Source: a virus
DNA: 41,477 bases
IMG/VR virus record: IMGVR_UViG_3300042882_000689
Location: 1-41,477 of that record
Reading direction: 5' to 3' (one strand)
The notes under the pieces are model-generated. The model searched no databases, had not been told where the DNA came from, and saw nothing but the letters and a program-made list of their open reading frames with translations. Shown in pieces: positions 15,314 through 36,593 of the stretch. The position numbers were made by a program, and so were the translations under genes. Position 1 is the first letter of the stretch; each line of letters begins with the position of its first letter.

Positions 15314-15558
15314 TCGTGAACGCGCCTCCATTTATCTTTCCACATTGACCTCGCCATCGTGGCGGACTTCTCGGCAATTGCTTCTTCGCTCATGTCAGGG
15401 CAGACATGGTGCAGCAGCTCATGCAGAACCGTGTCTAGCTCGTCCGCGCCGGACTGGCGGGGGTCAATGTAGACCTTGCCGTCGCCCATGGTCATCCCGT
15501 CCGCTTTTTCGCGGCCGAGCTTCTTGCGGACAATAGCGATGGTTCTGCGTGGAGGCAT
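15310..15558 (-). CDS. Small HExxH putative metalloprotein
   Basis: 82 aa. LDTVLHELLHHVCPDMSEEA (~41-60) contains HELLH, the zinc-binding catalytic motif of gluzincin-type metallopeptidases, with a following conserved glutamate (EEAIAEK) that could be the third ligand. This short one-domain form is common in phages, and its substrate is unknown. The start TAAATG is adjacent to the upstream stop. Confidence 0.65.
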   Translation of the reverse strand: MPPRRTIAIVRKKLGREKADGMTMGDGKVYIDPRQSGADELDTVLHELLHHVCPDMSEEAIAEKSATMARSMWKDKWRRVHE

Positions 15559-24235: not shown

Positions 24236-24345
24236 GGTTTAGTCTTGGTTGAAATGCGCCGGCAGATCGTCAGCAGTGCATCCACAGGGATGCATGGCCG
24301 GGTGCCGTGGTAGTTGCGGGCGGGGAGTTGGCTTGGGACGGTCAT
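24232..24345 (-). CDS. 37-aa micro-protein
   Basis: Starts MTVPSQLPARNYHGTRPCIP and ends in a short basic helix. GGAGG lies 7 bases before the ATG, and both ends overlap neighbouring genes by 4 bases, which strongly suggests translation. Two cysteines, no known motif. Confidence 0.6.
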   Translation of the reverse strand: MTVPSQLPARNYHGTRPCIPVDALLTICRRISTKTKP

Positions 24346-25883
24346 GTGGTCGCCTCCATCAGCTCGCTAACGAGAACTCGGAAGGCTCGCTCTGCGGTGG
24401 CCGGGACAACTCCATTGCCGAGGAGTCGCAGCTCATCGGTGCGATTGTCTGTGGAGACGTGCAGGACGGCATCGTCCAGCCGATGGGTAAGCCCATCAGC
24501 GTCTCGACCCAGCGGGGGTTGAGCTTGCCGGTCGCCCTCGCTTCCACCTCCACATTCAGTTGCTTGTATTGAACTATGGTTGGATCTCGATGACCGCTCT
24601 TGTGGTCTTTCGCTTGCGGCGTTGCCCATTGCTCCCGCTTCGCTTGATCCGCCAGCGGAATGCCGCCCTTGTTGTTCGGCCGGCTGCTCTCCGTTGCTCC
24701 AGTGCGAGGAGTGCTCCACAGGTCGCCCTTCTTGTGTTTCGCATGGACAAACTCCGCTAGGGTTGCTTGGCCCACTTCCATCCGCTTGATGTTGCTGTCC
24801 GCATTCGGACTGCTCTTCCAGTCGCAGGTGCGTGGCGTTGGAAAGTCCTGAGCCTTCACCTGCTCCTGCATCACCGCAATCGGCAATGGTCGATGCAAGT
24901 TGATGCCCTCTGCTTCCTTCCGGTGATATCTCGCCGTCCATGTCTCCAGCGATTCGTTCACTGAGCCGTCCAGACTTCTTGCTGTCGGCCACAACCCTTG
25001 GCGGCTCCCAAGCGAACTGCTGCTCGCCAGGGCGGCTTGGCCATGGACAGCCTCCCGCAACTGCGTGCCTTTTGGTCTGCTCAATCGCTTCTCTGTCAAG
25101 CAAGCGCCCATCGAATCCGTTGTCTGCACTGTCGGCCAATTCGCCGCATCTCTCCCATGCACCACGCTCACCGCCTGCCCAAGCGTCTGCTCCGACATGT
25201 TGGGCCGCGACGGTGGATGCGTGCCCGTTATAGTATCCTTCCAGTCCCGCGCATTGGCTGTCGGCCAATTCTTCTGCTCGTCCACTACCGCATCGCTCAA
25301 GTAGCGTTGCCCCTTGCCAGTTTTGTCGTAGTAGGCTCCACGCTCGTTGCTCCCCATGTGCATCGTAGGCCAAGATGAAGACCCGCTTCCGCTGGTGAGG
25401 CGCGCCGCATTCACTCGCTGACGCCACGCACCACGTCGTTCTGTAACCCATTCCTGCCAAGTCTTCGATAACGTCGGACAGCCCCAACGAGATATGTCCC
25501 TCGACGTTTTCAAAGAAACAGACACCTGGTCGCATGAGAGCAATTCCGGCTGATATGTAGGGCCAGAGGTGTCGTGGGTCTTCGGCGCCGAGTCGCTTGC
25601 CGGCTGCGCTAAACGGCTGGCACGGGTAGCCGCCAGAGAGGATGTCCACGCGGCCGTGAAACTCGGACCATGGGAAGGTTTTAAGATCCGTCCAGATAGG
25701 AGCTGGGTCCAAGAGTCCCGCTTCCATTTTAGAGACCAAGTTCGCGCAGGCGAAGGCTTCGATCTCACTAAAAGCGATTGTGCGCAGGCTTGGGATTGCT
25801 CGGCTAAGTCCGAGATCAATGCCTCCGTATCCGGCACAAAGGCTGACGTGTGTAACTGGCGAGGCAGAATCCACATGGCTCAT
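24342..25883 (-). CDS. C5 cytosine DNA methyltransferase
   Basis: 513 aa. Motif I SLCAGYGGIDLGL (14-26), motif IV GGYPCQPFS with nucleophile C88, motif VI ENVEGH (125-130), motif VIII QRKRVFIL (164-171) and the closing motif RLLGNGVVPATAERAF (~483-498) are all present. It transfers a methyl group from S-adenosylmethionine to carbon 5 of cytosine, probably protecting phage DNA from host restriction. The variable target-recognition region (~180-470) is long, glycine/serine-rich and carries repeated LADS, VADS or LSNA words. That region is also read in a second frame. AGGAGG lies 4 bases before the ATG. Confidence 0.9.
   Translation of the reverse strand: MSHVDSASPVTHVSLCAGYGGIDLGLSRAIPSLRTIAFSEIEAFACANLVSKMEAGLLDPAPIWTDLKTFPWSEFHGRVDILSGGYPCQPFSAAGKRLGAEDPRHLWPYISAGIALMRPGVCFFENVEGHISLGLSDVIEDLAGMGYRTTWCVASASECGAPHQRKRVFILAYDAHGEQRAWSLLRQNWQGATLLERCGSGRAEELADSQCAGLEGYYNGHASTVAAQHVGADAWAGGERGAWERCGELADSADNGFDGRLLDREAIEQTKRHAVAGGCPWPSRPGEQQFAWEPPRVVADSKKSGRLSERIAGDMDGEISPEGSRGHQLASTIADCGDAGAGEGSGLSNATHLRLEEQSECGQQHQADGSGPSNPSGVCPCETQEGRPVEHSSHWSNGEQPAEQQGRHSAGGSSEAGAMGNAASERPQERSSRSNHSSIQATECGGGSEGDRQAQPPLGRDADGLTHRLDDAVLHVSTDNRTDELRLLGNGVVPATAERAFRVLVSELMEATT
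24359..25876 (-). CDS. Overlapping +1-frame gene nested in the methyltransferase gene
   Basis: A 505-codon open frame wholly inside the methyltransferase gene. Its ATG at 25876 lies 7 bases after the methyltransferase ATG and 11 bases after the same AGGAGG. Its second half has repeated W-[PSA]-T words (NWPTANARDWKD, NWPTVQTTD, LWPTARSLDG, LWSTPRTG, QWATPQAKD) and ends with LNPRWVETLMGLPIGWT. I know both features from phage and bacterial proteins linked to C5 methyltransferases, so this frame looks selected. The first half is largely the shadow of the catalytic domain. Function is unknown; target recognition or an antirestriction partner are guesses. Confidence 0.6.
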   Translation of the reverse strand: MWILPRQLHTSAFVPDTEALISDLAEQSQACAQSLLVRSKPSPARTWSLKWKRDSWTQLLSGRILKPSHGPSFTAAWTSSLAATRASRLAQPASDSAPKTHDTSGPTYQPELLSCDQVSVSLKTSRDISRWGCPTLSKTWQEWVTERRGAWRQRVNAARLTSGSGSSSWPTMHMGSNERGAYYDKTGKGQRYLSDAVVDEQKNWPTANARDWKDTITGTHPPSRPNMSEQTLGQAVSVVHGRDAANWPTVQTTDSMGACLTEKRLSRPKGTQLREAVHGQAALASSSSLGSRQGLWPTARSLDGSVNESLETWTARYHRKEAEGINLHRPLPIAVMQEQVKAQDFPTPRTCDWKSSPNADSNIKRMEVGQATLAEFVHAKHKKGDLWSTPRTGATESSRPNNKGGIPLADQAKREQWATPQAKDHKSGHRDPTIVQYKQLNVEVEARATGKLNPRWVETLMGLPIGWTMPSCTSPQTIAPMSCDSSAMELSRPPQSEPSEFSLAS

Positions 25884-26322: not shown

Positions 26323-26444
26323 CGCCGTCCTCCGATTCGGTTGATGGCGTTGAAGGCAACGAAGCCGACGACGAGCAGGACAACGAGCGACACGAAGGTC
26401 GCGTCGGTGAGGTAGCTAAGAACTTCCAGTGGTGTGGGTGTCAT
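26319..26444 (-). CDS. 41-aa single-span membrane protein
   Basis: Reads MTPTPLEVLSYLTDATFVSL then a valine-rich hydrophobic span and the basic end INRIGGRR. Both ends overlap neighbours (ATGA), showing it is part of the early operon. An early phage membrane micro-protein; superinfection exclusion is one possibility, not shown. Confidence 0.55.
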   Translation of the reverse strand: MTPTPLEVLSYLTDATFVSLVVLLVVGFVAFNAINRIGGRR

Positions 26445-26680
26445 AGTTGTGGTGTGTTGGTTTGTTTTTCAGCCTGTCCACATGTGTCCACATGGCAGAC
26501 ATTGAAAGTGCGATCAGCAATGAAAGCATCAAGTGCCCGGACGCTGATCCGCGTGCCGCGCTGCGGGCCGACCTTGAACGCTGGCAACTCGCCGCTGGCG
26601 ATGAAGCCGCGGAGCCTTGAATTGCGAACGCGCAGGGCTTGCGCGGCTTCGCTGACAGTCAATGCAAGGTGGGCGTGCAT
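26441..26680 (-). CDS. Excisionase-like HTH_17 protein
   Basis: 79 aa from the ATG at 26680. LTVSEAAQALRVRNSRLRGF, then IASGELPAFKVGPQRGTRIS, is the winged helix (MerR/excisionase type) pattern: HTH, wing, then RALDAFIAD. It is the first gene of the leftward early operon and faces the rightward regulator gene, so it may act as excisionase, as a Cro-like switch protein, or both. Its 3' part holds a tandem TGTCCACATG repeat (26475-26494). No ribosome site precedes the start. Confidence 0.7.
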   Translation of the reverse strand: MHAHLALTVSEAAQALRVRNSRLRGFIASGELPAFKVGPQRGTRISVRALDAFIADRTFNVCHVDTCGQAEKQTNTPQL

Positions 26681-26787
26681 GCGTGGAGATTCGCAGACAG
26701 TTGTGGACAGCGCAAGACATATTTTCGCAAGCCGTGAAGCCAAGACCCTATTTGACAAATGTCCCAAAGTGTCCCTAAGTAAATTCT
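26681..26787. promoter_or_regulatory. Divergent switch region
   Basis: 107 bp between two divergent regulators. It contains TGTGGACA (26702-26709), the palindrome ATTTGACAAAT (26750-26760) with a perfect -35 TTGACA (26752-26757) for the rightward gene, and ATGTCCCAA (26759-26767), the exact inverse of TTGGGACAT at 27101-27109. A weak -10 (TAAGTA, 26776-26781) would start RNA at about the ATG of the rightward gene, giving a leaderless message like lambda cI. The leftward promoter is not clear. Confidence 0.5.
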
Positions 26788-28169: not shown

Positions 28170-29264
28170 TTAATCCGGCAGCTCAACCCGCTGATCCATG
28201 GTCGCGTAGTGCCGCTCGGTCGTGCTGCTCGTTGTGTGCCCAAGGAACCGCGACACGGTTGAGATCCGGCCAGTGGCGTTGAGCAGGTCGCTGCCCGCCT
28301 GCTTGCGTAGGCAGTAGAGCAAGTCCTTGCGCCCGGGCAGGAACTCCCGAAGCCAGTTGTTCATGATGCGCATGCACCAGTTGTGGCGTGTGTACGTTGT
28401 CCCTCCGGGCACCATGTAGTCATCAGCCTCCAGCAGCTCCGCGGCGACCGCATCGGGGAGCACAATCTGCCGCTGCCGCCGGCTGCCGGTCTTGAGCGTG
28501 AAGCCCTCGTCCGGCCGCTGCACAAGTAGCAGCTCATGCTTGCCGCCCCGCTTTTCGATCCAGCCCTTCCGGCAGGCCGCAATCTCAGTCGGCGTCATGC
28601 CGCAGCGTCGGGCCAGCAGGAACGCCCTGCGAATCCCGCCGCCAGCCAGCTTGCTCTTCTCCTCTAAGGTTGCCAGCACGTCCGCGGTGAGGGGAACGAA
28701 GGCGTCAAGGTTCGCCCGGATGCCGGTCTTGGCGGTCGCATCGCGGAACTCAGCGAGGTCCGGCAAGTCAAAGCCCTCCCAGTCATTCGCTCGGCAGAAG
28801 ACTGCGCGCCCCATGGCGAGGTTGGTCTTCTGCGAGGCCGGCGCCAGCTGCGTCTTGCGCAGGAAGTCGGAGACCAGCTTGCGGTTGAGGCGGGTGAGGG
28901 GAAGCGCGCGGAGTTTCTCCCGGTCGGTGACACCCAGGCTGTCCCGCAGGACAACGAGCAGCGCGTTGACGTTGTCCTTGCGGGAATCTACCTTGCTTGT
29001 CTGCAAGTAATGATCGCACGCCGCACCAATCGATTCGGAGGAAGTCTTCCGGGCATGATCCTTGAGCGCAGCCAGTCCAGCCGTGGCGGTCTGCTCAAGG
29101 ATGGCCTTGGCCTTGGCGCGCGCCATAGCGATGTCCTCGGTGGCCAGACTGAGACGCTGCCGGGTCAGCGAGGAGGGATGCCGGAACTGCAGCTGCCAGA
29201 ACGGAGACTTGCCGACCTTGTAGAGTGTTCCGGTCAGTCCGCGGTGCTTGATGGTGGTGTCCAT
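28170..29264 (-). CDS. int: Tyrosine integrase
   Basis: 364 aa from the ATG at 29264, chosen for its AAGGA site 7 bases upstream; an earlier start at 29315 lies in the repeat region. The N-terminal part has arm- and core-binding character (KHRGLTGTLYKVGKSPFWQL; SIGAACDHYLQ). The catalytic part shows ARRCGMTPTEIAAC with the first arginine, YCLRKQAGSDL with the second (histidine of the HxxR box replaced by tyrosine), LGHTTSS and the nucleophile in RHYATMD. It would recombine attP at 29.4 kb with a host tRNA-Thr gene. Confidence 0.92.
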   Translation of the reverse strand: MDTTIKHRGLTGTLYKVGKSPFWQLQFRHPSSLTRQRLSLATEDIAMARAKAKAILEQTATAGLAALKDHARKTSSESIGAACDHYLQTSKVDSRKDNVNALLVVLRDSLGVTDREKLRALPLTRLNRKLVSDFLRKTQLAPASQKTNLAMGRAVFCRANDWEGFDLPDLAEFRDATAKTGIRANLDAFVPLTADVLATLEEKSKLAGGGIRRAFLLARRCGMTPTEIAACRKGWIEKRGGKHELLLVQRPDEGFTLKTGSRRQRQIVLPDAVAAELLEADDYMVPGGTTYTRHNWCMRIMNNWLREFLPGRKDLLYCLRKQAGSDLLNATGRISTVSRFLGHTTSSTTERHYATMDQRVELPD

Positions 29265-29291
29265 GGCCGCATCCTTACGGCCCGCGGAATG

Positions 29292-29354
29292 GTCTGTCAA
29301 TACGAGTCTGACCAAAGTCTGTCAGAGTCTGACCACAGTCTGTCCGATAGTCTG
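29292..29354 (+). repeat. Six phased GTCTG repeats, putative integrase arm sites
   Basis: GTCTG starts at 29292, 29306, 29317, 29327, 29338 and 29350, spacings 14, 11, 10, 11 and 12 bp, nearly one helical turn each. The longer unit is AGTCTGACCA or AGTCTGTC. They lie 28-90 bp upstream of int and 72 bp from the tRNA-like core, where integrase arm-type or Xis sites are expected. They may also autoregulate int. Confidence 0.65.
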
Positions 29355-29425
29355 GCAGAAACAATCGATCTTACGGACCTTCTCGGTCGCTTACGGAACA
29401 GTCTCTACAGTAGAATTTGGGGAAC

Positions 29426-29464
29426 GCCGGCATAGCTCAGCTGGTAGAGCACCTGATTTGTAAT
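29426..29464 (+). other. attP core candidate: 5' half of tRNA-Thr(UGU)
   Basis: These 39 bases read as a tRNA from base 1 through the anticodon loop: acceptor strand GCCGGCA, D arm GCTCAGCTGGTAGAGC, anticodon stem CCTGA and loop TTTGTAA with anticodon TGT. After the first base of the 3' stem strand, pairing fails (TAAGC instead of TCAGG), so this is not a working tRNA. Such a fragment beside int marks the stretch shared with the host attachment site; crossover in the anticodon loop is likely. Confidence 0.82.
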
Positions 29465-29499: not shown

Positions 29500-29523
29500 G
29501 CGGTGTGGCTGGCGGTGTGGCAG
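29500..29523 (+). repeat. 12-bp tandem repeat beside attP
   Basis: GCGGTGTGGCTG then GCGGTGTGGCAG, two units differing at one base. They lie 36 bp from the tRNA-like fragment, on the side opposite the GTCTG repeats, and 2 bp from the stop of the giant virion gene. This placement suits the second arm of an attP. Confidence 0.5.
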
Positions 29524-29525
29524 GG

Positions 29526-32500
29526 TTACTGCTCCAACTGGTCTTCCGCAACCACCGCCGCGGCCCCGCCAACGAACAGCGCTTGCCCAGCCTTCTTGAT
29601 GCTCTCGCGCATCTGCGGGGTGATGTTGACGCGCCAGATGGGAACCGACTTGATTTCCTCCAAAGAGGCAATGCCCTTGATACCTCGAAATCCAAGAACA
29701 GACTTGAGGTCGTTTTTTGCGGTCGATGCAGGAATTTCTGTCCAAGCATCCGCAAAGTTGACTCTGTCTTTTGACATTCGGCGTTCTAATTGGGCAAGCA
29801 AAGCGTTTACTTTTGCGGCTTGTTCCATTGATCTGCTGCTGGCCGCAACTCCACCCTGCCTGCGAATATAGCGAACTGCTTCAAGGGCTTGAGGCGTATC
29901 AATAGTTGCTCTGGTTGCGGCTTGCGCCTTCTCAACCTGCGCACCCCACTGCTTCACATACTTGCTGATCTCTTTGGGCAGAATCTGGTCGTAGAAGCCT
30001 TTCATGCCTTCGCCGCCGACCTTGAGTCCGGCACCACGAAGCTCTCCTTGTGGGCCGCCCATGATTTTTTCTGCAATTTCTTTACCAACAACAGCGTCAA
30101 GGGTTTTGCCATCAAAATCATTGCCACCACCGCTCATGCTACTTGTCTTTCCGTCTGGCGAAACCTCAAACATGATTTCACCGGAATTTCGCGTCTCAAG
30201 TGTAACAATTCGAGATCCTCCTCCCTCTTGTTTCCATTCAATAGAATTAACCTGCTTGCTCAAATCATACCGCGCCGCCTGCGTCTCTCCGGTCGTCCAG
30301 CCGATCCACTCCTTGCCGTTGGAAACGGCATCAGCAAGGGCGCGCTTGAACATTTGGAGGGGCCAATCTTTGCGGAAGGGAGCGTCGGGGATGCCCGTGT
30401 CTTTGATGCGGTCAAAGTCTGCCTCTGGTATTGTGTTTCCCAGGTCGTCTGCTTGACGAACTAATGCAGCAAGCTCTGGATGTGTGTGCGCCCTTTCTCC
30501 GGCTTCTTCACGGCGACCAACCTCATCCATCAGTGCGTTCCATTGGTCAACTTTTGCTTTTCTTGCAGCCAAATTTCCTTCGCCTTGATACCCCTTCTCG
30601 CGCCCTTGCTGATGCCGGTCGCTCTGAACCTCCTCCAGAAACAGCCCAGGCCTGCCCGCAGTATCGGTGCGCTCGTTAAGGCGCATATGGGCAACGTAGT
30701 TGGGGGCGTCAAAGTGGGGCGAGGTATACTCTGGCGTGATTTGCGCTTCTTTAATCGGAATTGTTTTTAGCTCTGCTGCAAGCTCTGCGTATTCAGCCTC
30801 AAGTCGCGCCATCTCTCTTTTTGCAGCAGGATCAACGCCATTGAGAGGCTCAAGTTGCTTGGCCATTTCCTTAATGGCATCAAGGCGCTGATCAATAAAT
30901 TGCCGCCGCTGGCCTTTTTTGCTTATAGGCTTCACTGGCATCGCCAGCACCACCTCTCGATAGTTCTCGCCGCTGGGGAGCTGGTAGGAGCCATAACGCG
31001 CCGAACCTTTTGACCCGTAAAACGATTGCTCAATAGTTTCCGCAAGGCGAACCGCTTCTGCTGGCAATCCGAATTGACGCATTTCGGCAGCGCTCATCAA
31101 GTCACTGGGATCGTTGAGATCCATAAATGCCATGACCAGTCCGTCTTCTGAAACTTCAGAGCTGTAGCCAAGGCGGCCTAACTGCTCTTCGTTCGCAAGG
31201 TTTCTCTTTGTGCCACTTTCCTTTAGCGTCACCTCCTCCAACCTCACCGACCCATCCTCCTGCAGATACCGCAGCAGCGCCTCTTTGGGCACCTTCCCGC
31301 CGTTCTCCTTGGCTATGCGCTCCACGGCTTGCTCAATGCCGGTCCACTTTAACTCCTCAGCCTTGATGCCGTTCTGCGGGTTCTTGAGGATGGCGCGCAC
31401 TTGGTCCGCTGTGGCGGCCTTGCCTTGGATCTTGGAGTCCAGCACTTGGGCGGACTTCATGTAGAACGGTGGGGCGTCTGCGGGGCCAGCATCCGGCATT
31501 GCTTGTCCTCTTGTGACTTTACCAATCCGGTCCAGCTTCGGCAAAACGGTCTGCAACGGCTGCGCCTGCACGGCTCCAGCAGAGTTGCGGATGCGTGGGT
31601 CGCTGGTGAGCTGGCCGACATCATAGTATTTCTTGAGGAAGCCGATGCTGCGGCCGGTCACCTTGAAGGGATAGCTGTAGTGAAAGTCTGAGCGCATTGG
31701 CGCCTGCTCCAGTGGAACCTCAAGCAATGCAACCACCGTGCCGAATGGCACATCCGCATAGCGCGGGTCAGCCGTCTGCTTGCCGATGTCGTCGAAGGCA
31801 ATGCCAATGTCCTTGGCTTCCTTATAAGGAATCGGCAAAGCCTTGCGCGCGATTTGCACCGAGTAAGGCGCGGCGTCGGCAAAGTTGAGCGACTTGTTGC
31901 GCACCGCTTTGGCAAAGTCGTTGAGATTCTTGATCGCCGCAAACTTCCTGCGCGTGCTGTCGGTCACCGACTTTGCGGTCGATTGCATGATGGATTGCGA
32001 GATGGCTTTGATGTGCGCATCTGCCTGCCTTTTGCTGATCGACTTGCCAGCGATAGCCGCCTCTAAGGCTTCAACATACGCGAGCTGGCCGGTCTGGTTT
32101 TTGAGGTGGTTAAACTCACTCATCGCCGTGATGCCAACCAGCACACTGCCTTCGCCGGGTTCAGCCGCTTCACGCAGGCGTTTCATGAATCGGTTGCCTG
32201 TCGCCTCGTCGGAGAATGCCCAGCCGCCGCCGTTGTAGATCTCCATGAAGCCAGCGCCGCCTTGGCCTTTGACACTCAGATCGCGCTCACTTCCTCGAGG
32301 GCCGACCCTCATGCTGCCGATGCCCATGCGGTCGGCAGGCAGAGCAAGAATAGTGCGGTCGGCATAGTCAGCTAAGTTGACGCCGGCGTCCGGCATGAAC
32401 TGCGCCATTGCGCGCTGCGGCAGCCTAAATGTTGGGGCATCTTCTGGCGCCTGCACAAAGCCGTCTTGAGTGATGGCAGCATCCGGCATCGCCTGCCCAC

Positions 32501-35500
32501 GCCTCTGCAGCTCCCGCTGCAACTGCGCATCTTCCGACCGTACGCCGCGGCGCTCCAGCTCTGCGCTGATCGCCTCGTTGCGCCGGAGCAGCTCGCGGGT
32601 CTGCGCCGCGCTGCCACGCACCGGACGGCCCTCACGCATGCCCAGGGTGGACAGCCCGAGGTAGCCTTGGTTCTCCTCGTATTGGCGCAGGAGTTGGTCG
32701 GTGGGAACGGACTCAAGGGAGTCTGGCATGGCTTGCCCACGCGGGGCGGCTTTCGGCGGCGCGCCAACATTTTCCAGTGCCGCATTGAGTTTCTTGCGCT
32801 GTGAGGCGGTCGGATTCTCAGCGCGGTAAAACGCCTTGGCCAAATCGTCGCCAGCCAGCTGTGAATTTTTGCGGGCGAAGTCCACAAAGCTCTGCACAAC
32901 ATCCTGCATGTCGTAGTCAATCCTGCCGGTGTCACGCGCGTTCGCCCATGACTCCACGTCATCAAGCAGGCTTTCGGTATATGCGTCCCACCGCTCGCTC
33001 ATCCCATCACCCCTACCAGAAGCCGGAGCATCCGGCATCCCCTGAGCCCCCCGCGGGATCTGCTGGGGCATGCGGTTGTTGTTGATCTTGTCGTAGTCGA
33101 AGAAGTAGCCGGTGCGTCCGCTTGGCTGGGCATCGTTGAGCCGGTCGATGCGCCAAGTGCGGATGCTGCCCCGGGGATTCAGCTCGGCGTAGAGCGGGTT
33201 AGCGGCGCGCTGCACGGCCGTGCCGGTGCCGATGAGTCCGTTGAGGGTGTCACGCTTCTGCTGTCCGATGGTCATTTCGCCGGGGCGCCCGTTGCGATGG
33301 TTGGCTAGGTAGGTCTTTAGGTCGGCCTCCACCTGCTTCATGTCGTTGTTAAAGATGCCCAACTCGCCCTTGTTGATCGCCCTCATGGCGGACGCGCGGA
33401 AGGCGTTGATGTCTATGCCAGCGGCCAACAGGTGATTGGCCTTGCTAACAAGCCACCCAAACGGCGCGCTGCTTTCTGTCTGGATCGCCCTGACGTTGCC
33501 CATGTTCAGAATGCGGTATCTGCCGCTGGCTCCGCTGCCGACACGATTGTAGTCAATAAGCCATGTTCCGCCTTCTTCGCGGCTGGCCTCCATCTTGCGA
33601 ATGAGGCCGATGTCTTTTGTGACCGGATCTGGCCGCAGCCACTGAGGGAAATGCGTAAAAAGATCGAATTGCGGAGGAAGCACAGGACCGCCAATAACAA
33701 CACGCCCATTGACCTTGCGCCGGCCAAACTCAGTTGAGTTTACCGGCACAAACTTGTTGGCATTGTAAAGCGTCCGAATCTGTGCCGCGCGATTTCCTTC
33801 AGCATTGTTGATGATCGGCTGCGGCTTGTAGGCGTAGGTGCCGTCCGGCTTTTGGAACAGAAAGTCATTTTCCAGCACGCCGCGGCCCTCGTCCCGCAGC
33901 TTGACGTGCGTACTGCGCGCCATGTCTTCCGGGCGGCTGCTCCGCGCCAGCTCTACGCCGCGGGGTGTTGCGCTGCCGGCCTCCTCAAGGCCGACCAGGT
34001 ACTGATCGTAGGCGCGCACATATTCCTTCACCCGCTTCTGCATGATGCGGTCTTGGAAGAGCGGGTTGTCGCGGAAAAGGACAGACGGATTGTCCAGCAT
34101 CTTGCCGGTGCCGCCGTCCAGCCGCACACCCATCACCTCCAGCACGCGCCCGCCGGCAGCCAGCATTGACTCGGCCAAACGCGGAAACGCCCCGTCACGG
34201 CGGATGGCGCGAAAGTCAATGGCCGGAGCCTCCGAGGCAAACGTCTCGGCGATCACCTCGTCGCGCGCCCAGTCCAGGGCGTCCTCGCCGCGCTCAATGC
34301 TCTGCTGCGACAGCTCCTCGTAGCGTTCGTTGATCAGCCTCTCCCGCTCGCTCGGCTCCAGCTTGCGCGCCTTGGAAATGTCTGCCGCGGACTTGTTGCC
34401 ACTCTCAAGGTCGCGGAACTCCTGCTCGGTGAGCACCTGGGGCAGCTCGCCGGTTGTGCCGTTGTTGATGTCTGAGTCAACCAAGCGTGCCACATACTCG
34501 CGGCCGCGGGCCTGCACGCCGTCTGCCCCATACTGCTGGTTGACCAAGTTGCGCAGATCGTTGCGCGGCTGACCGTCCAAAATGTTGCTGGTCAGGATGG
34601 CGTGGCCAATCTCATGCGGCACGATGGCCCCGACACCGCCGGCTGACTTGCGTGCGTCGAGATTGATGAAGACCCTGGCGCGTCCGTTGGCGTCCTTCTC
34701 GAGGAACAGTCCCGCGGCCAACTCACCGCCGGTTGCCGAGACATCCTTGTTCATCCGGTATTCGTCCGCCTTGAGAGGAACAAAGTCCACCTTGCCTGCC
34801 AGCACGCCCTGCATGGCCGCCATGCGGTCCAGAGAGGCATGCGGCAGCGCCGACAGCGCGTCCACATTGCCGCCCACGGCATAGACATCGGCCATCATCC
34901 GCGCCACATCTGCGTCCGGTGCCGTGCTCCGGCGACCGATGGCACCGCCGACCAGTCCTCCGGCACCGCCGAGGGCCATGATGCCGCCGAAGACTTCACC
35001 GGCGCGCTCGGCATCCGGCTGCAGGGCCGCAAAGGGGGCTCCGGTGATCCCGGCCGCCACTGCCCCGCTGGTCACATCGTCAGCTAGGCGCGCCGCTGTG
35101 GTCACGCCAGCACGGTCGGCAAAGCGAGCCACACGGCGCAGTGCCTCGGGGTTGCCAGCGTCCTGCGCCACCCGCTTGAGTGTGCTATCGGTGCCGTCAA
35201 CGTAGCCTGTAAAGTATTTGCGGTAGCGCTCAGGGATTGCCGTCATGCGCGCCAAGTCAGCCGCCGCTTCTGCCCGCGCCGTGCCGATGCCGCCTACACC
35301 CGCCTCGCGGATGATGGTCGCCGCACCGCCGGCCGCCGCTCCGGTCCTGCGGATAATCGCACCGCCGTAGCGCAGCCCCGGCAGCACGCTGCCTAGAGCC
35401 GTTACCGCAGCGGTCACATTGCCCCCGCCGCCGGCTGCGTCCGCATAGACCGCCGCACCGGCCGCACCGGCGCCCAGTGCCGCCTGCTGCTTGGCCGTCA

Positions 35501-36593
35501 GTCCGGTAATGTCCTGCACGCGGCTGCTGATGCCAAACTCCATCCGCTCGGCGAGGTCTGCCGTGGCGTCCGCCGCACGCTGCACGCCCCGGAGTGGAGC
35601 GCCGGCTAGGGTCGCCGTCCTCCGCAGCACACGCAGCTTGCTCAGCGCGCCCGCGCCCAAGGGCACCAAGTTGACCGGATCGAGGGCCATTGAGCCGATC
35701 ATCGACAGCGTCTCCGCGGGCTGCTCGTTGGTGATCTGGTAAGCCTCCTTGCTGGTCGCTGGCGCGGCCATCTTGCTGGCACCCACTTGAAAATCTGTCA
35801 CTCCTGCGAACTCCTGCTCCAGCGCCTTCTCCCGCTGGTAGCGATCATACGCCTTGTTGAAGTCCTCCTCATTTTCCACCGGCGTCGGCTCCATGGCGTC
35901 CGCCTCGCTGGCCGCCGCGGCAATGATGTTGGCGTCCTGCAACTCATCGCCGGTCAGCTTCCCCTCCTGCTCAAGGCGCTTGGCCAATGCCTGGTGCTTT
36001 AGTCCGCGCCGCTTCGCCCAAGTCGTGGCGTCATCGACCTTGTTGCCCACCCAGTCAAAGAGCTGCACCATGTTGATGCCGGCCTTGCGGATAGTTTCTG
36101 CGCCGGTCTGCACGTTGCGCTGCACTTGGTTGACCGGATCGGTGACCATGCCGACCATGCCGTCGCGGATCTCGCGTCCCGCCTCGGGGATCATGGCAAG
36201 CATGCCCGCGGCACCCTGTCCCACGCCTTCAATAAAACGGCCGACCTCGTTGTTCTCCTCCGTCCGCCGCGTCCAGTACTGCCGGAACTCCTCCTGCGGC
36301 ATGATGTAGTCCACGCGGCGGTAGTTTTCCTCCTCGAGCTGGTTCAGCTCGTAGTCCGTCATCGGCTCCGGCTCCGCGGGAGCTTCGGGCGGTAGGGCAA
36401 TGCCACGCTCGCGGGCAAACGGCGTGGAGGCCAGCGTTGGCAGCGCATCAAGCTCCCGGTCGGTAAAGCCCTGAGCCGGGGCAGGGGATGCGGCAAGGCG
36501 GTCTACCAGCCCGGTGGTGATCTCCGGCTGTCCCTGCTGCGCTTCCAATGCGGCCAGCTCTTCGTCAGTCAGTCCTATCGAACCTGGTACCAT
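29526..36593 (-). CDS. Giant polyvalent virion protein with HEXXH motif
   Basis: 2,355 aa. AAGGAG lies 10 bases before the ATG. The N-terminal third is helical with glycine/alanine-rich hydrophobic stretches (~365-430, 500-560) fit to enter membranes. VPHEIGHAILTSN (~655-667) is a zinc metallopeptidase motif. Residues ~1000-1650 carry modules separated by linkers of the type RGQAMPDA. The C-terminal part (LFLEEVQSDRHQQGREKGYQ ~1990; EWIGWTTGETQAARYDLSKQ ~2100; then KGFYDQILP) is a 'large polyvalent protein' domain found in many phages. It is probably ejected into the cell with the DNA. Patches of low G+C (about 30060-30280 and 30430-31260) suggest mosaic assembly. Confidence 0.8.
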   Translation of the reverse strand: MVPGSIGLTDEELAALEAQQGQPEITTGLVDRLAASPAPAQGFTDRELDALPTLASTPFARERGIALPPEAPAEPEPMTDYELNQLEEENYRRVDYIMPQEEFRQYWTRRTEENNEVGRFIEGVGQGAAGMLAMIPEAGREIRDGMVGMVTDPVNQVQRNVQTGAETIRKAGINMVQLFDWVGNKVDDATTWAKRRGLKHQALAKRLEQEGKLTGDELQDANIIAAAASEADAMEPTPVENEEDFNKAYDRYQREKALEQEFAGVTDFQVGASKMAAPATSKEAYQITNEQPAETLSMIGSMALDPVNLVPLGAGALSKLRVLRRTATLAGAPLRGVQRAADATADLAERMEFGISSRVQDITGLTAKQQAALGAGAAGAAVYADAAGGGGNVTAAVTALGSVLPGLRYGGAIIRRTGAAAGGAATIIREAGVGGIGTARAEAAADLARMTAIPERYRKYFTGYVDGTDSTLKRVAQDAGNPEALRRVARFADRAGVTTAARLADDVTSGAVAAGITGAPFAALQPDAERAGEVFGGIMALGGAGGLVGGAIGRRSTAPDADVARMMADVYAVGGNVDALSALPHASLDRMAAMQGVLAGKVDFVPLKADEYRMNKDVSATGGELAAGLFLEKDANGRARVFINLDARKSAGGVGAIVPHEIGHAILTSNILDGQPRNDLRNLVNQQYGADGVQARGREYVARLVDSDINNGTTGELPQVLTEQEFRDLESGNKSAADISKARKLEPSERERLINERYEELSQQSIERGEDALDWARDEVIAETFASEAPAIDFRAIRRDGAFPRLAESMLAAGGRVLEVMGVRLDGGTGKMLDNPSVLFRDNPLFQDRIMQKRVKEYVRAYDQYLVGLEEAGSATPRGVELARSSRPEDMARSTHVKLRDEGRGVLENDFLFQKPDGTYAYKPQPIINNAEGNRAAQIRTLYNANKFVPVNSTEFGRRKVNGRVVIGGPVLPPQFDLFTHFPQWLRPDPVTKDIGLIRKMEASREEGGTWLIDYNRVGSGASGRYRILNMGNVRAIQTESSAPFGWLVSKANHLLAAGIDINAFRASAMRAINKGELGIFNNDMKQVEADLKTYLANHRNGRPGEMTIGQQKRDTLNGLIGTGTAVQRAANPLYAELNPRGSIRTWRIDRLNDAQPSGRTGYFFDYDKINNNRMPQQIPRGAQGMPDAPASGRGDGMSERWDAYTESLLDDVESWANARDTGRIDYDMQDVVQSFVDFARKNSQLAGDDLAKAFYRAENPTASQRKKLNAALENVGAPPKAAPRGQAMPDSLESVPTDQLLRQYEENQGYLGLSTLGMREGRPVRGSAAQTRELLRRNEAISAELERRGVRSEDAQLQRELQRRGQAMPDAAITQDGFVQAPEDAPTFRLPQRAMAQFMPDAGVNLADYADRTILALPADRMGIGSMRVGPRGSERDLSVKGQGGAGFMEIYNGGGWAFSDEATGNRFMKRLREAAEPGEGSVLVGITAMSEFNHLKNQTGQLAYVEALEAAIAGKSISKRQADAHIKAISQSIMQSTAKSVTDSTRRKFAAIKNLNDFAKAVRNKSLNFADAAPYSVQIARKALPIPYKEAKDIGIAFDDIGKQTADPRYADVPFGTVVALLEVPLEQAPMRSDFHYSYPFKVTGRSIGFLKKYYDVGQLTSDPRIRNSAGAVQAQPLQTVLPKLDRIGKVTRGQAMPDAGPADAPPFYMKSAQVLDSKIQGKAATADQVRAILKNPQNGIKAEELKWTGIEQAVERIAKENGGKVPKEALLRYLQEDGSVRLEEVTLKESGTKRNLANEEQLGRLGYSSEVSEDGLVMAFMDLNDPSDLMSAAEMRQFGLPAEAVRLAETIEQSFYGSKGSARYGSYQLPSGENYREVVLAMPVKPISKKGQRRQFIDQRLDAIKEMAKQLEPLNGVDPAAKREMARLEAEYAELAAELKTIPIKEAQITPEYTSPHFDAPNYVAHMRLNERTDTAGRPGLFLEEVQSDRHQQGREKGYQGEGNLAARKAKVDQWNALMDEVGRREEAGERAHTHPELAALVRQADDLGNTIPEADFDRIKDTGIPDAPFRKDWPLQMFKRALADAVSNGKEWIGWTTGETQAARYDLSKQVNSIEWKQEGGGSRIVTLETRNSGEIMFEVSPDGKTSSMSGGGNDFDGKTLDAVVGKEIAEKIMGGPQGELRGAGLKVGGEGMKGFYDQILPKEISKYVKQWGAQVEKAQAATRATIDTPQALEAVRYIRRQGGVAASSRSMEQAAKVNALLAQLERRMSKDRVNFADAWTEIPASTAKNDLKSVLGFRGIKGIASLEEIKSVPIWRVNITPQMRESIKKAGQALFVGGAAAVVAEDQLEQ

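Follow-up and report, generated by a model that had tools for sequence, protein, structure and literature searches.

Introduction

What is the 5′ half of a tRNA gene doing beside the integrase gene of an uncultured phage, and what does it tell us about where, and in which host, the phage integrates? The window, that is, the whole stretch of 41,477 nucleotides analysed here, carries at positions 29426-29464 a sequence, GCCGGCATAGCTCAGCTGGTAGAGCACCTGATTTGTAAT, which the initial annotation had read as base 1 to the anticodon loop of a tRNA-Thr. It had taken this half tRNA to mark the phage attachment site (attP), to place the host site (attB) in a tRNA-Thr(UGU) gene and to offer a direct probe for the host. 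We conclude, with a probability of roughly 0.9, that the sequence is the attP core and that the phage integrase recombines it with a tRNA-Thr(UGU) gene of the Chthoniobacterales, the crossover falling within tRNA nucleotides (nt) 1-38 and most likely in the anticodon loop.

Results

The half tRNA and its neighbourhood

Neither ARAGORN nor Rfam sees a complete tRNA in the window, so that only a tRNA half is present. Its 39 letters correspond to nt 1-39 of tRNA-Thr(UGU). A genome search of the kind that the initial annotation had proposed, made in a collection of 84,980 species, returned exact matches in 20 genomes, where the identity extends over a 43-mer (the 39-mer plus CAGG), and at the Chthoniobacterales loci with the 39-mer ARAGORN confirmed complete tRNA genes. 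Exact identity over 39 bases counted from tRNA base 1 is beyond chance. The piece shared by the phage family stops at nt 38, where the 7-nt anticodon loop ends, and some members lack the T at nt 39; the extent first assigned to the fragment is borne out, with the family boundary refined to nt 38. A 100-bp direct repeat at the two ends of the contig shows the phage map to be circular (41 kb), and the half tRNA is therefore an internal attP and not a contig-end artefact. It adjoins the gene of a tyrosine-recombinase-like integrase (int), lying 161 bp upstream of it, between the divergent int start on the minus strand and the 3′ end of a 2355-aa gene (Table 1).

Table 1. Features of the attP region and its neighbours in the window.
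Feature	Position	Strand	Remark
Small HTH_17 protein	26441..26767	-	Pfam PF12728, E 1.8e-9
Tyrosine-recombinase-like integrase, 364 aa from conserved ATG	28170..29264	-	ORF open to TTG at 29315
Six GTCTGNC boxes, putative left arm-type array	29292..29356	+	spacing 10-14 bp
Palindrome TCTACAGTAGA	29404..29414	.	unique in the window
TAGAAT, -10-like hexamer	29411..29416	+	9 nt before tRNA base 1; putative promoter
attP core, tRNA-Thr(UGU) nt 1-39	29426..29464	+	nt 1-38 common to the phage family
5′ anticodon stem CCTGA, nt 27-31	29452..29456	+	putative core-type integrase half site
Anticodon loop TTTGTAA, nt 32-38	29457..29463	+	putative 7-bp crossover/overlap region
Two GTGTGGC boxes 12 bp apart, putative right arm-type boxes	29503..29521	+	
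2355-aa gene	29526..36593	-	3′ end forms the right border of attP

The boxes on the left start at 29292, 29306, 29317, 29327, 29338 and 29350. With the stricter pattern STSTG[GA]C, five occurrences fall within the 296-bp attP region, as against 25 on that strand genome-wide. This clustering of GTSTGNC boxes on both flanks of the core suggests that they serve as integrase arm-type sites. The palindrome is possibly a site for Int, Xis or a repressor; TACAGAG-like motifs recur beside att in many relatives, with 5′ or 3′ halves. The domain type of the small HTH_17 protein makes it a candidate excisionase or regulator. The 2355-aa protein has no Pfam match and diverges fast between related phages. 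Elsewhere in the window, two minus-strand ORFs of 513 aa (24342-25883) and 505 aa (24359-25876) overlap almost completely in different frames, and the 513-aa ORF is a cytosine-5 DNA methylase.

The integrase

The integrase matches the PHROG family phrog_1 (integrase) at E 7.4e-19, and its match to Pfam Phage_integrase is below the cut-off. A fold model made with 26 sequences (mean pLDDT 76.5; a model made with 10 was too poor) finds its best matches in the P2/HP1 integrase catalytic domains (Z 15.8 and 14.8). In 26 aligned integrases R337 (box II, LR), H360 (box III, GH) and the nucleophile Y370 are invariant. With residues numbered in the ORF from the TTG at 29315 and the Arg I column assigned by alignment, the position of the catalytic arginine of box I is occupied by T241 (GMTP) in the window integrase and in clades A-D; threonine also stands there in two Verrucomicrobiota prophage integrases (G348 and G429), and arginine in more distant relatives. 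The protein thus has the homology, the catalytic-domain fold, boxes II and III and the tyrosine of the tyrosine recombinases but not the box I arginine, and because of this replacement by threonine we call it a tyrosine-recombinase homologue with a substituted residue. It is the conserved attP that suggests the integrase is active. A tblastn search with the window integrase found no match in 50,697 phage records, six 8-residue integrase patterns found no relative in the genome contigs searched with them, and a profile search of PDB sequences returned chance matches only.

Conservation of the half tRNA among viral relatives

Searches of viral contigs yielded relatives of the integrase in a close group, a group at ~47% identity and a group at ~24% identity. 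Thirty-six viral loci, the window and 35 others, have a readable upstream region, with integrases 22-99% identical to that of the window. In all 36, a tRNA 5′ half lies at a distance of 140-166 bp from int, its base 1 turned towards int and its right end at nt 38. Among 17 representatives the mean pairwise identity of the half tRNA is 0.81-0.84 versus 0.36 and 0.43 for the flanks, and the anticodon loop is the most conserved part (0.91). The isoacceptor varies: besides several alleles of Thr-UGU, the loci carry halves of Thr-CGU (L083, L084 and L105-L108) or Lys-CUU (L097 and L099). Variants of the D stem stay paired (GCTC/GAGC, GCAC/GTGC, GTTC/GAAC). This would follow if the half has to yield a working tRNA; copying of host genes could also explain it, since the host alleles themselves pair. 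In two close relatives, L071 and L078, the integrase is in fragments or internally deleted, and the half tRNA and the adjacent attP sequence are kept. Two further loci (L067 and L077) were set aside: there the 5′ half belongs to a complete, CCA-bearing tRNA, and an integrase of this family is absent.

Farther out, among integrases 23-30% identical to that of the window, L060 and L064 have 3′ halves in the classical orientation, and in G006 and G408b int lies beside the displaced 5′ half. The orientation of the tRNA core thus varies within the wider integrase family, and the distant relatives are an imperfect guide because several of them use 3′ halves or the opposite int side. A simple reason for both orientations might be the palindromic anticodon stem-loop, whose half-sites would look alike from both sides.

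Integrated relatives

From a 5′-half attP one expects a lysogen in which int faces the 5′ end of a complete tRNA and a displaced 5′ half lies at the distance of one element. Such a layout is present in two integrated relatives in Verrucomicrobiota genomes, the complete tRNA and the displaced half lying ~45 kb apart in both. In G408 (contig C63), the 5′ end of a complete tRNA-Arg(TCT) at 15325-15401 points towards an int that extends from 15615; the displaced 5′ half, at 60022-60060, is exact over 39 nt and reaches to the end of the anticodon loop. In G155 (contig C58), a complete tRNA-Lys(CTT) at 43682-43754 is accompanied by int at 43789-45090, and a displaced 5′ half, exact over 38 nt, ends at 89137. 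Both integrases are ~27% identical to that of the window, and no homologues of the structural genes of the window phage were found on either island. These two layouts, together with the family-wide conservation, support the earlier proposal that the half tRNA marks attP. Next to the displaced half of G155 are the remains of another integrase, with 73% identity over 64 residues; this suggests that the site has been used more than once. As to the contents of the islands, that of G408 (15.4-60 kb; L134-L137) carries very large repeat-type and secreted-looking proteins, and that of G155 (43.7-89.1 kb; L146-L151 and L175-L180) an HsdM-like gene.

In G408, TTGCCA stands 33 nt upstream of the displaced half, at nearly the same spacing as before this tRNA in the relatives G405 and G314, and the sequence upstream of the rebuilt tRNA differs from that upstream of the displaced half. 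This pattern agrees with a loss of the original promoter by the rebuilt gene. For an empty site of G408, relatives with the same tRNA showed no synteny across the site, which leaves it unconfirmed. Two more genomes, G491 (on a contig with terL and portal) and G128, show int facing the 5′ end of a complete tRNA, on contigs that stop short of the far junction. A complete tRNA-Arg with a degenerate half 3.8 kb away in G246 was not counted, since both have the same upstream sequence and no integrase was seen between them. The genomes searched held no lysogen of the window phage or of a close relative (integrase above ~33% identity), and no reads joining the two tRNA halves were found.

Host assignment

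The 20 genomes with the exact 43-mer comprise Chthoniobacterales, about a dozen Alphaproteobacteria and three Acidobacteria. Exact host alleles thus exist, as the proposed tRNA-Thr(UGU) attB would have it, although the 39-mer alone is not unique to one host group and so falls short of the direct host probe first envisaged. We favour the Chthoniobacterales (Verrucomicrobiota) as the likely host order because of the C6/T6 allele match, the match of other tRNA alleles and the homologues of phage genes. One or the other of the two phage alleles, C6 and T6, occurs in 11 of 213 Chthoniobacterales genomes, and in 2 of the 387 genomes of a phylum-wide sample, both Chthoniobacterales. The Thr-CGU half of the clade D phages is found exactly in four Chthoniobacterales genomes, that of L083 and L084 in G207, G218 and G219; the G207 bin holds both a phage contig with the Thr-CGU half beside its integrase and, on another contig, the intact identical tRNA. 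The Lys-CUU half of L097 and L099 has no exact host among the 213 Chthoniobacterales genomes. Homologues of terL and of the integrase occur in Verrucomicrobiota, and TerL homologues with 51% identity in two Chthoniobacterales genomes. The terL loci of G112 and G104 were set aside, their phage genes having no complete tRNA alongside.

Discussion

We propose that the phage integrase would recombine attP with the host tRNA-Thr(UGU) gene by strand exchange in the 7-nt anticodon loop, the palindromic stem providing the two core half-sites. The phage 5′ half would then be joined to the host 3′ half to give a complete tRNA beside int, and the original 5′ half, together with the host promoter, would be moved to the opposite end of the prophage, where the junction is predicted to read host promoter, 5′ half and then AAGCTGCTGTAG. 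When the window attP and the host 3′ half are joined in silico, ARAGORN reads a complete tRNA-Thr(tgt).

This scenario has a consequence that the initial annotation missed, namely, the loss of the promoter of the rebuilt tRNA. A crossover in the 5′ half severs the rebuilt gene from the host promoter, so that phage DNA must drive its transcription, and, int being divergent, the promoter would have to lie on the plus strand within 29265-29425. A phage promoter ahead of the half tRNA is, then, what the logic of the model demands; the -10-like TAGAAT is perhaps part of it, and L087 and L088 have TATAAT in its place. A scan around attP detected no sigma-70 consensus pair. As there is one match per host genome, the rebuilt gene is probably the sole intact copy of that tRNA in the lysogen.

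How far do the observations constrain this model? We place the crossover in the anticodon loop because of the constant boundary at nt 38 and the palindromic stem. Strand exchange might instead take place elsewhere in nt 1-38, for example in the D arm, in which case the homology that reaches as far as the loop would serve only to preserve the tRNA sequence; every crossover in nt 1-38 yields identical products, and for that reason the products cannot locate it. Against such an exchange, which we consider improbable but the most serious of the alternatives, the shared piece always spans the whole loop and ends at its last base, the loop is conserved most of all (0.91), and a 7-bp anticodon loop with a palindromic stem is described as matching the canonical att core, a 7-bp overlap between palindromic core sites (PMC8371274). 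Of the original proposal that a crossover in the anticodon loop keeps the tRNA whole, what stands is the rebuilding of the whole tRNA by a crossover at or before the loop; the loop itself is the most likely place within nt 1-38. The host could also be a Hyphomonas-like alphaproteobacterium or an acidobacterium with the same 39-mer, given the exact 43-mer in these groups. We think this unlikely, as the T6 allele and the Thr-CGU alleles of the sister phages match Chthoniobacterales, and homologues of terL and of the integrase occur in Verrucomicrobiota, the look-up of integrase homologues in Alphaproteobacteria and Acidobacteria having covered individual genomes.

The role of the half tRNA itself may be questioned as well. 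Fragments of tRNA genes are common scars of integration, and the retention of the half in L071 and L078 in spite of their internally deleted integrases might suggest a left-over from earlier integration, or from imprecise excision, that has no part in integration today. We regard this reading as very improbable, since in 36 of 36 viral loci the half has kept its place, its right boundary and the pairing of its D stem, and has done so while the flanks diverged to 36-43% identity and the isoacceptor switched; the integrated relatives, too, use the 5′ half. Still further from the evidence, to the point of being negligible, is a tRNA-dependent lysogeny in which the host tRNA is destroyed and a phage tRNA gene substitutes for it, as known in some mycobacteriophages integrating at tRNA genes (PMC10865867). 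We dropped it because the phage encodes no tRNA, the window being without a complete one, and the long shared half rebuilds the host gene.

Beyond integration through the 5′ half at a tRNA-Thr(UGU) gene, we tentatively entertain, at somewhat less than even odds, a wider picture in which verrucomicrobial temperate phages and islands are committed to 5′-half integration while switching isoacceptors, the lysogen's only intact copy of an essential tRNA is expressed from a prophage promoter, the wider family uses the core both ways by virtue of the palindromic stem, and the clade works with threonine in place of Arg I. The finding assigns a host order, and a precise site in the chromosome, to an uncultured phage clade. 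It is, for bacteria, a clean case of a rare integration geometry in which the promoter of the rebuilt tRNA has to come from the element instead of from the host, and the switching of tRNA genes provides a natural series on how integrases change target.

Lastly, we consider the system in the context of those already known. The likeness to P2/HP1 integrases is confined to the predicted fold; sequence identity is 15-22%, and threonine replaces Arg I here. With the usual mycobacteriophage tRNA attP our phage shares a 30-45-bp common core that rebuilds the tRNA at the attachment junction, but that attP carries the 3′ half (PMC10865867), and the rebuilt tRNA therefore keeps its upstream host DNA. 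Integration through the 5′ half is a rare but known geometry, of which the window phage is a well-supported further case, with unusually good evidence at the level of the family. A review describes the situation as seldom met in bacteria (PMC8371274). The archaeal element pTN3 has 41 bp in common with the 5′ part of a tRNA-Leu, and its rebuilt tRNA is separated from the promoter (PMC5495485). As here, the attB of the pTN3-like integrases of Thermococcales (IntpTN3) is the 5′ half, and the full tRNA is rebuilt with loss of the original promoter (PMC5495485, PMC8371274); pTN3 differs in being an archaeal plasmid whose attP lies within the integrase gene, which is disrupted on integration, whereas the attP of the window lies 161 bp outside int and is flanked by repeated boxes.

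Also close to the present case are the genomic islands collected in Islander, where a 5′ tDNA fragment was found in 159 of 3,919 islands and anticodon-centred att sites form one recognised class (PMC4383910). In these 5′-fragment islands, as in our model, integrase-mediated insertion leaves an element bounded by a complete tRNA on one side and by a displaced 5′ fragment on the other. The window has what such an element should have on its own side, namely, identity over nt 1-39, int 161 bp away and a tRNA that is rebuilt in silico; the two-ended host layout, a complete tRNA with a displaced fragment in the same orientation, is seen in G408 and G155, a lysogen of the window phage not having been found. 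What sets the present case apart from the Islander examples is that the fragment here is a phage attP, and that 5′ halves are retained throughout an integrase clade across changes of isoacceptor.
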